Source of the DNA: Microcaldota archaeon
Lineage (GTDB): Archaea; Iainarchaeota; Iainarchaeia; Iainarchaeales; 1-14-0-10-31-34
NCBI GenBank assembly: GCA_018829335.1
Contig: JAHJUD010000054.1
Location: forward strand, 1-39,916
DNA: 39,916 nt
Direction: 5' to 3'
In this document: in pieces, positions 5,927 through 33,936 of the stretch
Numbering within the stretch: the first letter of the stretch is position 1
How the letters are laid out: each line of letters begins with the position of its first letter
Program-made: the position numbers and the translations under genes
Notes under the pieces: generated by a model
Seen by the model: only the letters and a program-made list of their open reading frames with translations
What the model was told of the DNA's origin: nothing
Database searches by the model: none

Positions 5927-5960
5927 CCGCTTTAATGGGAATAAACCGGCAGAAGCGGTT
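5925..5960 (+). other. 8-bp perfect inverted repeat/hairpin between rpoD stop and tRNA-Leu
   Basis: aaccgctt (5925-5932) ... aagcggtt (5953-5960), 20-nt loop, ends 2 nt before tRNA. Confidence 0.6.
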
Positions 5961-5962
5961 TT

Positions 5963-6109
5963 GCAGGGGTACCCAAGCGGTCAACGGGGCAGGACTTAAG
6001 AAAACTTTTGAAAAAAGTTTTATCAAAAGAACAAAAAAAACTTTTTAAAAAAAGTTCGAAGAAATCCTGTGGCTTAGTGCCTTCGAGAGTTCGAATCTCT
6101 CCTCCTGCA
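5963..6109 (+). tRNA. tRNA-Leu (anticodon TAA) with intron at 37/38 (about 6001-6063)
   Basis: Acceptor gcagggg/ctcctgc + discriminator A, D-arm tacccaagcggtcaacggg, anticodon stem cagga/tcctg with CT-TAA-G, long variable arm, T-arm gagagttcgaatctctc; 63-nt AT-rich insert after position 37. Confidence 0.92.
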
Positions 6110-6114
6110 TAAAT

Positions 6115-6203
6115 GTTTCGCCGTTTAAGCACAAAGTCCAGCATAAAGCTGGACTAGCACGGTTTTATGCCGTGCACCGTGACTCGCGAGCGGAATCGCG
6201 AAA
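6115..6203 (+). ncRNA. Structured repeat element, copy 1 (nested helix with two hairpins)
   Basis: tttcgc...gcgaaa closing helix; hairpins gtccagc-ataaa-gctggac (6136-6154) and gcacggt-tttat-gccgtgc (6157-6175); 81/89 identity by hand alignment to reverse complement of 32707-32795. Confidence 0.6.
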
Positions 6204-13352: not shown

Positions 13353-13390
13353 GCAAAAAAAAACACCTTTTCCAAAAGGTGTAACAAAAT

Positions 13391-13409
13391 GTACGGCGTA
13401 AAGCCGTAC
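13391..13409 (+). repeat. GTAAA-loop hairpin (7-bp stem)
   Basis: gtacggc-gtaaa-gccgtac; same 7+5+7 layout as gcacgcc-gtaaa-ggcgtgc in the 32707-32795 element. Confidence 0.5.
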
Positions 13410-13477
13410 TGAAAAAATAAAGAAAAGCAAAGGATTAAAAGAAACAAAAAACAAATTAATGAAGGAAAATGATTAAA

Positions 13478-28358: not shown

Positions 28359-29318
28359 ATGGCTTGGACTATTGTTGAAACACCTAATGCAAAATATATT
28401 TTGGTTTTTGGAGCGCATGACAGGAGAAATATCCCTCCGCCTGCAAAATTTGATGCATTAATATTAGAAACGCCTATAGAACATGCATTCTATTCAGATT
28501 ACCTTGGATATACGCCAAATTTAGACAGAATAGATATGATAAATAAAGCTGTTGCAGAAAACAAGCAAATATGGCTGACTGATGTAAATTTAACTAAGAA
28601 ATCTCATCAGGATTATGAACAGAAGAAACTTAAAATGCCAGAGATTAGAGAAAAAACCGTAAAAAAAATAATAGCTGGAAGTGGTCTTTTATCTTTAATT
28701 TCTTCATTATTATATGTTAAAAAAAAGGTAAATAATAAAATGAACAGAAGAAAGTTCATAAAAAAAGCAGCAATAAGTGTGGCAATTCTTGCAGTCCCTC
28801 CTATTGTGGCAACACCAATAGCAAACAAAATAATTTACAACCTAAATATAAACGATGGCGAAATAAGAGTTCCTATTTTATGGGATTTAACTACACAATT
28901 AGACAAAATATTATATGGAGAAGAAGCGTTAAAAGGGATAGTAACAATAAGAAATGCAATTACAGCACAAAAAGCAGAAGCATTTCTTGCACCAAAACTA
29001 AAACAAGAACTAAACAGAAAGCCGGTAATAGCAATGGTCTGGGGCGCAGGGCATTATGAAATAAAAAGACTTTTAAAGCATCCTAATGAAAGATACAGGA
29101 TTCTAAAGAAAAATAAACTAGAAGATTATGTGCAAAAAGATTACCCAAAAAGCTACAGAGTACAATTTAATGAAAAAGGACAAATAACAAGAACTAAAGA
29201 ATTCAAAGAAACACTCAAAATTCCTGAAACCCCAAAAAAAAGAATCACAAGAGGAAGTGGAAACACTAAAATAAGCAGAAGGGAATTTTTTAGGACAATG
29301 ATAAGAAGAAGAGTTTAA
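28359..29318 (+). CDS. TraB/Tiki-like protein with internal twin-arginine-like TM segment
   Basis: LVFGAHDRRNIPP, DALILETP, RNAITAQK, IAMVWGAGHYEIKRLL; internal MNRRKFIKKAAISVAILAVPPIVA; C-terminal SRREFFR. Confidence 0.55.
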   Translation: MAWTIVETPNAKYILVFGAHDRRNIPPPAKFDALILETPIEHAFYSDYLGYTPNLDRIDMINKAVAENKQIWLTDVNLTKKSHQDYEQKKLKMPEIREKTVKKIIAGSGLLSLISSLLYVKKKVNNKMNRRKFIKKAAISVAILAVPPIVATPIANKIIYNLNINDGEIRVPILWDLTTQLDKILYGEEALKGIVTIRNAITAQKAEAFLAPKLKQELNRKPVIAMVWGAGHYEIKRLLKHPNERYRILKKNKLEDYVQKDYPKSYRVQFNEKGQITRTKEFKETLKIPETPKKRITRGSGNTKISRREFFRTMIRRRV

Positions 29319-30655: not shown

Positions 30656-32533
30656 ATGAGTAAAGTGATTGGTATTGATCTCGGCACAAGTAATTCTGCA
30701 GCAGCAGTATTAGAAGGAGGAAAACCAAAAATAATTCCTTCAGCTGAAGGCGCAAGTTTGTATGGAAAAGCTTTTCCTTCTGTTGTGGCTTTTACAAAAG
30801 ACGGGCAAATGCTTGTAGGAGAACCGGCAAAAAGACAGGCAGTAAGCAATCCAGAAGGAACAATTACTGGCGCAAAAAGAAAAATGGGAACTTCATTCAA
30901 ATACAAAGCCCAAGGAAAAGAATATACCCCTCAACAGATTTCTGCTTTTATTTTACAAAAAATAAAAAAAGACGCTGAAAGCTTTTTAGGAGAAAAAATA
31001 GAAAAAGCAGTTATAACAGTTCCAGCATATTTTGACGACAACCAAAGACAAGCAACAAAAGACGCAGGAAAAATTGCAGGATTAGAAGTTATTAGAATTG
31101 TAAATGAACCAACTGCAGCATCACTTGCTTATGGATTAGACAAAAAAGGAAAAGACAGGAAAATTTTAGTGTTTGATTTTGGCGGAGGAACATTAGATGT
31201 AACAGTAATGGAATTCGGCGACGGAGTATTTGAAGTAAAATCAACTTCAGGAGACACTCAATTAGGCGGAAGAGACATGGACGAGGTTGTACAAAAATAC
31301 ATTATAGAAAAATTCAAAACAGAAGAAGCAGCAGACTTAACAAAAGACAAAATGGCAATGCAAAGATTAAATGAAGCAGCAGAAAAAGCAAAAATTGAAT
31401 TAAGCAATGTAATTGAAACAGAAATTAATCTGCCTTATATTACTGTAACACAAGAAGGCCCAAAACATTTAGTAATGAAATTAAACAAAGCAAAATTAGA
31501 AGAATTAGTTAAACCAATTGTTTCAAAATGCGAAAAACCAGTAAACCATGCTCTTGCAGACGCAAAACTTACTCCGGCAGAAATAGACAAAGTAATAATG
31601 GTCGGAGGCCCTACAAGAATGCCTATAGTACAAGAATTCGTGGAAAAAATCGTAGGCAAAAAAGTTGAAAGAGGAATTGACCCAATGGAATGCGTTGCAA
31701 TGGGTGCAGCAGTACAGGCAGGAGTATTATCAGGAGAAGTAAAAGATATTTTATTGCTTGATGTAACTCCATTAAGTTTGGGAATAGAAACTCTTGGAGG
31801 AGTTTTTACAAAACAAATTGAAAGAAACACTACTATTCCAACAAAAAAAAGCCAGATTTTTTCAACTGCAGCAGACAATCAGACTGCAGTAGACATTCAT
31901 GTATTACAAGGAGAAAGAACAATGGCTTCAGACAACAAAACTTTAGGAAGATTCCAGTTAATTGGAATTCCTCCTGCGCCTCGTGGGATACCTCAAATTG
32001 AAGTGACTTTTGACATTGATGCAAACGGAATAGTGCATGTAACAGCAAAAGACATGGGAACAGGAAAAAGCCAGAAAATTTCAATTGTTGCATCAGAGAA
32101 ATTAAATGAAACAGAAATAGAAAAAATGAAAAAAGAAGCAGAACAGTTTGCTGAAACAGACAAAAAGAAAAAAGAAGAAATAGACACAATTAATCAGGCA
32201 GATGCAATAGTATACCAGACAGAAAAAACTTTGAAAGACATGGAAGGAAAAGTTGACTCAAAAAAAATTCAGGGAATAAAAGATGAAGTAGCAGAACTCA
32301 AAAAACTGCTTGAACCAAAAGAAAAAGATGTTACAGCAATCAAAACAAAATTAGATGAAGTGAATAAATTATTTCAGGAAGCTTCAACTGAATTATACCA
32401 GAAAGCCTCTCAACAAGCACAAGGGCAAACAGGAGAAAAAGAAGAAAAAAACAAAGACGAAAAAGTAGTTGACGCAGACTATAAAATGGAAGACGAAAAC
32501 AAAGACGAAAAAAAAGAAAAAAAGAAAAAATAA
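30656..32533 (+). CDS. dnaK: Molecular chaperone DnaK (Hsp70)
   Basis: [63 protein letters not shown]. Confidence 0.98.
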
Positions 32534-32637: not shown

Positions 32638-32713
32638 TCGCGAAAAAAAAAGGAAAGGAAAAAAAATAATTCAGGTTAAATTACTTTCCTTCCTTTTTTT
32701 TATTCTTTTCGCG
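32638..32713 (+). repeat. Imperfect inverted repeat with CGCGAAAA / TTTTCGCG ends flanking a purine/pyrimidine stem
   Basis: cgcgaaaaaaaaaggaaaggaaa ... tttccttccttttttttattcttttcgcg between dnaK and dnaJ. Confidence 0.5.
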
Positions 32714-32795
32714 ATTCCGCTCGCGAGCCACGGTGCACGCCGTAAAGGCGTGCTAGTCCAGCTTTATGCTGGACCTCGTGCTCAAACGGCGAAAC
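32707..32795 (-). ncRNA. Structured repeat element, copy 2 (minus orientation)
   Basis: Reverse complement aligns gap-free to 6115-6203 (8 mismatches in 89, counted by hand); hairpins 32735-32753 and 32756-32774. Confidence 0.6.
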
Positions 32796-32811
32796 GTTTG
32801 CGTGACAGTTT

Positions 32812-33936
32812 ATGAGTGAGAAAAGAGAGTATTACGAAATTTTAGGATTAAAAAAAGGCGCTTCAATTCAAGAAGTAAAAGAAGCCTACAAAAAACTGGC
32901 AAAAAAATACCATCCGGATATATCCAAAGAAGAAAACGCAGAAGAAAAATTCAAAGAAGTATTAGAAGCTTATTCTGTTTTAAGCAATCCGCAAAAAAAA
33001 GAAAATTACGATAAATTCGGCCATGCGGCAGAAGGCTTTCAAGGATATGGCGGATTTGGAGGCCAAGGATTTGATTTTTCTGCAATGGACTTTGATTTCG
33101 ATGACTTATTCAAGAATTTTGGCTTTGGAGACATTTTTGGTTCAAGGCAGAGAAGAGGGCCAAGAAAAGGAGTTGACTTAAGGTTTGACTTAAGCATTGA
33201 ATTTGAGGAATCAGCTTTTGGAGTAAAAAAAGAAATTGAAATAGAAAGAATTGAAGCATGCGATAAATGCAGTGGTTCTGGATCAGAAAAAGAAGAAGAC
33301 CTGGTTTCTTGTTCTCAATGCAATGGAACAGGAATGCAGACTCACTCGCAAAGAACTCCTTTTGGAACATTTAATACAAGAACTACCTGCAGGAAATGCA
33401 GAGGAGAAGGAAGAACAGTAAAAAATCCCTGCACTAAATGCAATGGAACAGGAAGAATAAGAAAAAAAAGAAAAATAACTGTTGCAATTCCAGAAGGAAT
33501 ACAAAACGGTGCATATTTAAGATTAAGAAATGAAGGAAATGCAGGAGAAAGAGGCGCAGGAAACGGAGACTTATATGTTGTAATATTCATTGAACCCCAT
33601 GAATTCTTTAAAAGAGATGAAGCAGACATTTACGGAGAAGTGCCAATAACTTTTTCTTTGGCTGCATTAGGCGGAGAAATTGATGTTCCTACATTAAAAG
33701 GAAAAGCAAAATTAAAAGTCCCTTCAGGAACACAGACAGGAACAATTTTCAGATTAAAAGAAAAAGGAATAAAAGACATTGAAGAAGGCGGTTTTGGAGA
33801 CGAATACATTAAAGTTATTTTAAGGACTCCGGAAAAGCTTTCAAAAAAACAAAAAGAATTATTTGAGGAATTAAAAGAAGGGGAAAAAACAACAGAAAAC
33901 GGTTTTTTTAAGAAATTCAAGAAAGTATTTAAGTGA
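32812..33936 (+). CDS. dnaJ: Molecular chaperone DnaJ (Hsp40)
   Basis: J-domain with HPD; G/F region; CxxCxGxG-like zinc repeats. Confidence 0.96.

Follow-up and report, generated by a model that had tools for sequence, protein, structure and literature searches.

A dispersed family of modular double-hairpin DNA repeats in Diapherotrites archaea, entered from the spacer behind a tRNA-Leu gene

The spacer between tRNA-Leu and the gene for eL18 on the archaeal contig JAHJUD010000054.1 carries a short, strongly structured element that recurs in inverted orientation between dnaK and dnaJ. The question is whether such an element is an RNA or a repeat of the DNA itself. We analyzed the whole stretch of 39,916 nucleotides, referred to as the window, following an earlier note that had been made from the sequence alone and had called the element a candidate novel ncRNA or structured mobile repeat.

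The two copies and the unit from which they are built

The note had aligned 6115-6203 with the reverse complement of 32707-32795 gap-free, with 81 of 89 positions identical, and this count is exact on recount, as is the genomic context given for both copies. The true element is slightly larger, however, extending over 6110-6201 (+) and 32709-32800 (-), 92 nt each with 82 of 92 positions identical, and BLAST retrieves the second copy at E = 2.9e-32, a match well beyond chance. The first copy starts at the first base past the discriminator base of tRNA-Leu (6109), with eL18 beyond it; the second lies in the spacer between the end of dnaK at 32533 and the start of dnaJ at 32812. The features of the window are as follows, with scores from a covariance model of the unit (CM R1).

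5943-5961, minus strand: hairpin-A-like hairpin AAACCGGCAGAAGCGGTTT, one base before the 5' end of tRNA-Leu, detected as an abutting 5' hairpin
5963-6109, plus strand: tRNA-Leu (TAA) gene, read from the sequence and missed by ARAGORN, its long intron with the AT-rich hairpin sequence AAAACTTTTGAAAAAAGTTTTATCAAAAG
6110-6201, plus strand: composite 1, two 47-nt units head to head around TA; CM R1 matches 6110-6156 (+), 53.1 bits, and 6155-6201 (-), 60.3 bits
6110-6127, plus strand: hairpin A, TAAATG-TTTCGC-CGTTTA, 6 bp with a 6-nt loop and one G-U pair
6128-6135, plus strand: 8-nt linker AGCACAAA
6136-6154, plus strand: hairpin B, GTCCAGC-ATAAA-GCTGGAC
6155-6156, no strand: central TA junction of composite 1
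6157-6175, minus strand: hairpin B of the inverted unit, GCACGGT-TTTAT-GCCGTGC
6176-6183, minus strand: 8-nt linker of the inverted unit, ACCGTGAC (GTCACGGT on its own strand)
6184-6201, minus strand: hairpin A of the inverted unit, TCGCGA-GCGGAA-TCGCGA
13363-13411, plus strand: single unit of the AT-rich subfamily, ACACCTTTTCCAAAAGGTGT + AACAAAAT + GTACGGC-GTAAA-GCCGTAC + TG, in the spacer downstream of a glutamyl/glutaminyl-tRNA synthetase gene; CM R1, 33.2 bits
32709-32800, minus strand: composite 2, in the dnaK-dnaJ spacer, inverted relative to composite 1; CM R1 matches 32709-32755 (+), 61.3 bits, and 32754-32800 (-), 61.4 bits
32709-32726, plus strand: hairpin A, TCGCGA-TTCCGC-TCGCGA
32735-32753, plus strand: hairpin B, GCACGCC-GTAAA-GGCGTGC
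32756-32774, minus strand: hairpin B of the inverted unit, GTCCAGC-ATAAA-GCTGGAC on its strand
32783-32800, minus strand: hairpin A of the inverted unit, CAAACG-TTTCGC-CGTTTG on its strand

The window also encodes, at 28359-29318, a 319-aa protein that is without a Pfam match at E<=1e-5.

A basic unit measures 47 nt and is made up of hairpin A (6 bp with the 6-nt loop TTYCGY), a linker of 8 nt with the consensus nnMACGRK, hairpin B (7 bp, with the 5-nt loop NTAAA, ACAAG or TTTCA) and a terminal TA or TG. An earlier unit scan that permitted G-U pairs was dominated by chance (361 hits against 283 in shuffles) and was replaced by a strict structural scan with the fixed 18+8+19 geometry, which found 51 units in 817 kb, compared with 0, 0, 0, 1 and 0 in shuffled sequences. 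Hairpin B is followed by TA in 34 of these 51 units and by TG in 13. Units stand alone, in tandem or as head-to-head pairs, and both window copies are pairs of the last kind that share the TA. The 51 units draw on 20 hairpin-A arms and 23 hairpin-B arms in 46 different combinations, which is a shuffling of modules, and many arms are common to several species. Most units are extragenic, with 10 of the 51 inside ORFs of at least 100 aa as against 78% of the bases.

Further subfamilies are distinguished by an AT-rich hairpin A (AAACCCTTTCCAAAGGGTTT + AACCAAAT) or by the loop CTGCTC, and in some of them the units form tandem arrays with a repeat of ~40 nt. At L042:2367-2463 and L049:6467-6565, beside tRNA 3' ends, such arrays are exact and hold three to four copies of a GTACGGG/GTACGGC hairpin with an AT-rich spacer. 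A hairpin-B subtype in which a long loop (TTCGCTTTGCTC or ATTCATTGCATTCA) replaces the 5-nt loop was also seen, at G000:C39:464-519 and elsewhere.

The covariance-model search of the genome and its relatives that the note had proposed as a check brought many further copies to light: a single Diapherotrites genus yields 70, 77 and 74 CM R1 matches across three genomes, and a second genus from the same family yields 3. BLAST located the sequence at 20 places in its own genome and at 16 and 12 in two congeners, with no match among 50 genomes outside the genus. GC-rich hairpins are likewise in excess over shuffled sequences, at 53 against 4 in the G000 sample and 46 against 5 and 35 against 6 in the congeners. 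Across the phylum, 24 of 87 genomes match CM R1 at E<=1e-3. Outside the genus, matches occur in scattered families at up to 20 per genome; family f7 has none, nor do f21-f23, the families of the rest of the class. The matches inspected in other families resemble the same unit; that at L218 lies in a tRNA-like intron, and that at L221 directly abuts the 5' end of a tRNA-Glu. Relatives of the repeat elsewhere in the order are weaker and patchy. An exact 22-base core pattern occurs in GTDB r220, where records very near the own genome may be absent, only in the Candidatus Diapherotrites genomes PFAI01 and JAFCDN01; it has no match in IMG/VR and none in GenBank phages, and carriage by viruses or phages was accordingly rejected.

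Pairing of the unit as DNA or as RNA

Both 7-bp hairpins described in the note are present, as is the double change in the second of them (gcacggt-tttat-gccgtgc vs gcacgcc-tttac-ggcgtgc), and the argument that was built on this compensatory change is correct and now extends to all 13 base pairs of the unit. In a gap-free alignment of 50 distinct units (A2), every one of these pairs shows double changes and 98.2% of the cells are paired, a value that is partly due to construction because the units were chosen for pairing. The covariation score of A2 is 0.870; shuffles score 0.216 +/- 0.017 and slid versions no more than 0.112. In candidate sets picked by one hairpin plus motifs the other hairpin is still paired in most members. 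In hairpin B, an A-A or A-G mismatch of the GCACGAC..GTCGAGCTG type recurs at the third pair (A2 columns 29 and 43) and may mark a subtype in which the mismatch is fixed. The possible kissing of loops in the composites (TTYCGY with RCGRAA, ATAAA with TTTAT) was discarded as evidence, because this complementarity merely follows from head-to-head symmetry.

The overall fold is a different matter. The single nested structure drawn in the note is the predicted minimum-free-energy fold of both window copies on the strand it had read, whereas the fold that is conserved consists of four local hairpins. Among 20 composites, the local hairpins have standard pairs in 88% (outer) and 98% (inner) of the cells, while standard pairs account for 37-43% (stems) and 69% (loop-loop) of the cells of the long-range closing pairs, and the outer helix tttcgc/gcgaaa that had been put forward as the closing element is not conserved.

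The kinds of imperfect pairs indicate the level at which the stems are kept. In unit stems found without requiring perfection, G-U, A-C and other imperfect pairs stand at 11:10:20, compared with 82:1:2 in the acceptor and T stems of tRNAs from the same genomes (p = 1e-16), and stems of tRNA-flanking units oriented on the transcribed strand of the neighboring tRNA give 6:1:34. Since selection at the RNA level should favor G-U, the pairing is most simply explained as that of Watson-Crick DNA palindromes, which either selection acting on hairpins in the DNA or templated correction would maintain. It is therefore very improbable that the element is an independent novel ncRNA folded into a single nested structure, which the note had offered as one of its two candidates. 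The low folding energy of both copies (z-scores of -4.8 and -5.6) would suit such an RNA, but in addition to the unconserved closing helix and the missing G-U bias, units also exist as halves and in both orientations, and they occupy sites as varied as tRNA 5' ends, 3' ends, tRNA introns and spacers between protein genes. The Rfam covariance-model search gave no match at the gathering score and none over the element itself at E<=1; a weak tmRNA match at 15.6 bits, against a gathering score of 47, lies over tRNA-Leu and was rejected. The other candidate, a structured mobile repeat, is supported by the many dispersed copies, the modular architecture and the differences in presence between related species.

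Placement at tRNA genes and turnover between species

Within the genus, an abutting hairpin is found at 45 of 93 tRNA 3' ends and 34 of 92 5' ends, where about 2 would be expected for each. In 38 of 52 hairpin-bearing 3' flanks, the first hairpin has an offset of 0-3 nt to the tRNA, and hairpin A is proximal to the tRNA on both sides, so that the units at 5' ends are inverted, as mirror images of those at 3' ends. Of the good model matches, 45 of 114 lie within 120 bp of a tRNA, compared with less than 1% of the genome, and two are located inside tRNA introns, one as part of a complete composite. Introns enlarged by hairpin units were noted in the genus at 5963-6109 of the window, G002:C6:23646-23816, G002:C5:16284-16451 and G001:C16:27970-28177; the enlarged tRNA genes reach a whole-gene length of 208 nt, and one intron holds a complete composite. 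A second, CAGAACCTNGCGGTTCCGATACCTCC-like hairpin family was seen in the tRNA flanks of the sister genus (L182-L211, G003) and also in tRNA introns of this genus (G000:C120:1875-1993 and G001:C31:24604-24722).

Comparison between species reveals conserved occupancy together with replacement of the hairpins. The dnaK-dnaJ copy is absent from that spacer in both congeners and in the second genus, while the spacer after tRNA-Leu has a different hairpin unit in each species of the genus and none in the second genus; the intron of the tRNA-Leu orthologue contains hairpins in G002 and none in G003. Among orthologous tRNA 3' ends, 16 are occupied in both species, 13 in neither and 9 are discordant (p = 9e-4), and occupancy of 5' ends is also correlated (p = 0.014), the pairs in both comparisons not being fully independent. 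Where both orthologous ends are occupied, hairpin A is identical in sequence in 1 of 27 cases and different in 26. Clean empty sites with a target duplication were not found in the comparison with the congeners because these are too diverged, with ~80% identity in DnaJ.

The conserved occupancy of tRNA ends is also compatible with selection for some role, or with insertions that are old and were exchanged later. One such role would be that of cis-acting hairpins in pre-tRNAs, transcribed in leaders, introns and trailers and aiding tRNA processing, folding or the formation of transcript ends. The flush position at mature tRNA ends and the presence inside tRNA introns, both in G002 and in another family, speak in its favor along with the occupancy itself, and the positions of TATA-like boxes, at about -100 where a 5' hairpin is present and more often at about -40 where there is none (from small numbers), suggest that the unit is probably included in the transcript. 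We nevertheless consider this role unlikely to account for the family, given that the transcribed strand has no G-U preference, that more than half of the tRNA ends have no hairpin and that ~60% of the good model matches, such as the one between dnaK and dnaJ, are away from any detected tRNA; moreover, tRNA ends of other genera mostly have no abutting hairpin (3/60 in G003, 1/60 in G026 and 5/56 in G030 are occupied). A similarly low probability is assigned to a purely mutational origin, in which hairpin-templated correction or template switching would keep the palindromes perfect and gene conversion would spread them with no transposition involved. This process accounts well for the perfect Watson-Crick stems, for double changes that lack intermediates and for the replacement of one hairpin by another at a fixed site, but by itself it leaves the ~70 dispersed copies and the expansion in one genus, the conserved loops and linker, and the precise flush position on both sides of tRNAs without an explanation.

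Possible mode of spread and relation to known repeats

We favor the reading, with a probability of roughly 0.6, that the window element belongs to a family of non-coding, dispersed DNA repeats built as modular double hairpins. Its palindromes would be kept as DNA, and its units would be non-autonomous DNA that spreads or is swapped from site to site, most likely in the form of folded single-stranded DNA. Hairpin A sits flush with the base of tRNA cloverleaf stems on either side, and a mechanism that uses single-stranded DNA and acts where a folded stem has its foot would account for the direct placements at 3' ends as well as the inverted ones at 5' ends. The symmetry of these placements, the lack of G-U bias and the module shuffling together point to an element that would act as folded single-stranded DNA at the feet of stems. 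It is possible, and we propose it more tentatively, that the units represent a new class of archaeal miniature mobile DNA which would insert, itself folded and single-stranded, where other folded stems have their base; the main targets would be tRNA introns and the cloverleafs of tRNAs on either strand. An enzyme or the replication machinery would drive the process, and sites would stay occupied while the unit in them is repeatedly replaced.

Mobility is an inference here, because a Y1 transposase is absent or unlinked and a reverse transcriptase was not found; an enzyme acting in trans might be responsible. Y1 transposases (PF01797) occur in G000 only and are absent from the two other carrier genomes (81% and 91% complete), and the G000 copies inspected have no units at their ends, which led us to reject an IS200-type origin. 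Copying by reverse transcriptase was rejected because a search of the three genomes gave no PF00078. Three of the Y1 genes in G000, L102, L103 and L104 (G000:C29, C100 and C30), are related IS200-like copies with similar flanks of their own, two of them cut at contig ends, and a fourth, different one is at G000:C123:3380.

A search of open-licence papers turned up no dispersed palindromic repeat family of this kind from Diapherotrites or other DPANN archaea, and the family is apparently undescribed so far. It would carry the problem posed by REPINs and mitochondrial hairpin elements over to archaea, as a clean test case in which structure is kept at the DNA and not the RNA level, hairpins are shuffled as modules and placement at tRNA ends is near-base-precise without an obvious transposase, and the mechanism could be tested by strain comparison. 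The archaeal repeat works like several known systems and is a member of none. REP and REPIN sequences of bacteria are short extragenic palindromes that occur as singlets and inverted doublets, show compensatory changes, adopt two alternative folds (a long hairpin or a clover) and are non-autonomous (PMC3116915). The archaeal units share the extragenic palindromes, the inverted doublets, here head to head around TA, the compensatory changes, the alternative folds and the non-autonomy; they differ in having two hairpins per half unit where a REPIN has one, in stems that are far more variable than loops and linker, in the strong preference for tRNA ends and in the archaeal host. REPINs are linked to a RAYT, a Y1 transposase with REPs beside its gene, and those of the GTAG families also to a GTAG tag at the palindrome foot. 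Both were tested and are absent from the archaeal family, in which no RAYT is flanked by units, the linker reads nnMACGRK and the 3' end is TA/TG. In IS200/IS605-derived miniature elements, the common point would be single-stranded DNA hairpins at the element ends, in contrast to the distribution of Y1 described above.

CGTC-tagged REPs of bacteria have stems of 8-9 bp and loops of 4-5 nt, with head-to-head dimers predominating and no dedicated transposase known (PMC3733652). Short stems (7 bp in our case), head-to-head dimers and the lack of a dedicated transposase recur in the archaeal family, whereas A2 shows no conserved unpaired CGTC, TGTC or CCTC tag next to hairpin B, hairpin A adds a second hairpin to the unit and many stem sequences coexist within one genome. 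Nearest in behavior are the repetitive hairpin-forming and double-hairpin elements of mitochondria and the GC clusters of yeast, which are often GC-rich in AT-rich genomes, sporadic in relatives and subject to merging and shuffling, with no known mobilizing enzyme (PMC2800124, PMC4478555). Those elements are organellar and eukaryotic, and no shared sequence is shown with the archaeal units, which lie on archaeal contigs and are placed precisely at tRNA ends and introns; like the mitochondrial double-hairpin elements, however, the archaeal units have two hairpins at a fixed spacing and are dispersed, and both their occupancy and their sequence vary between species.
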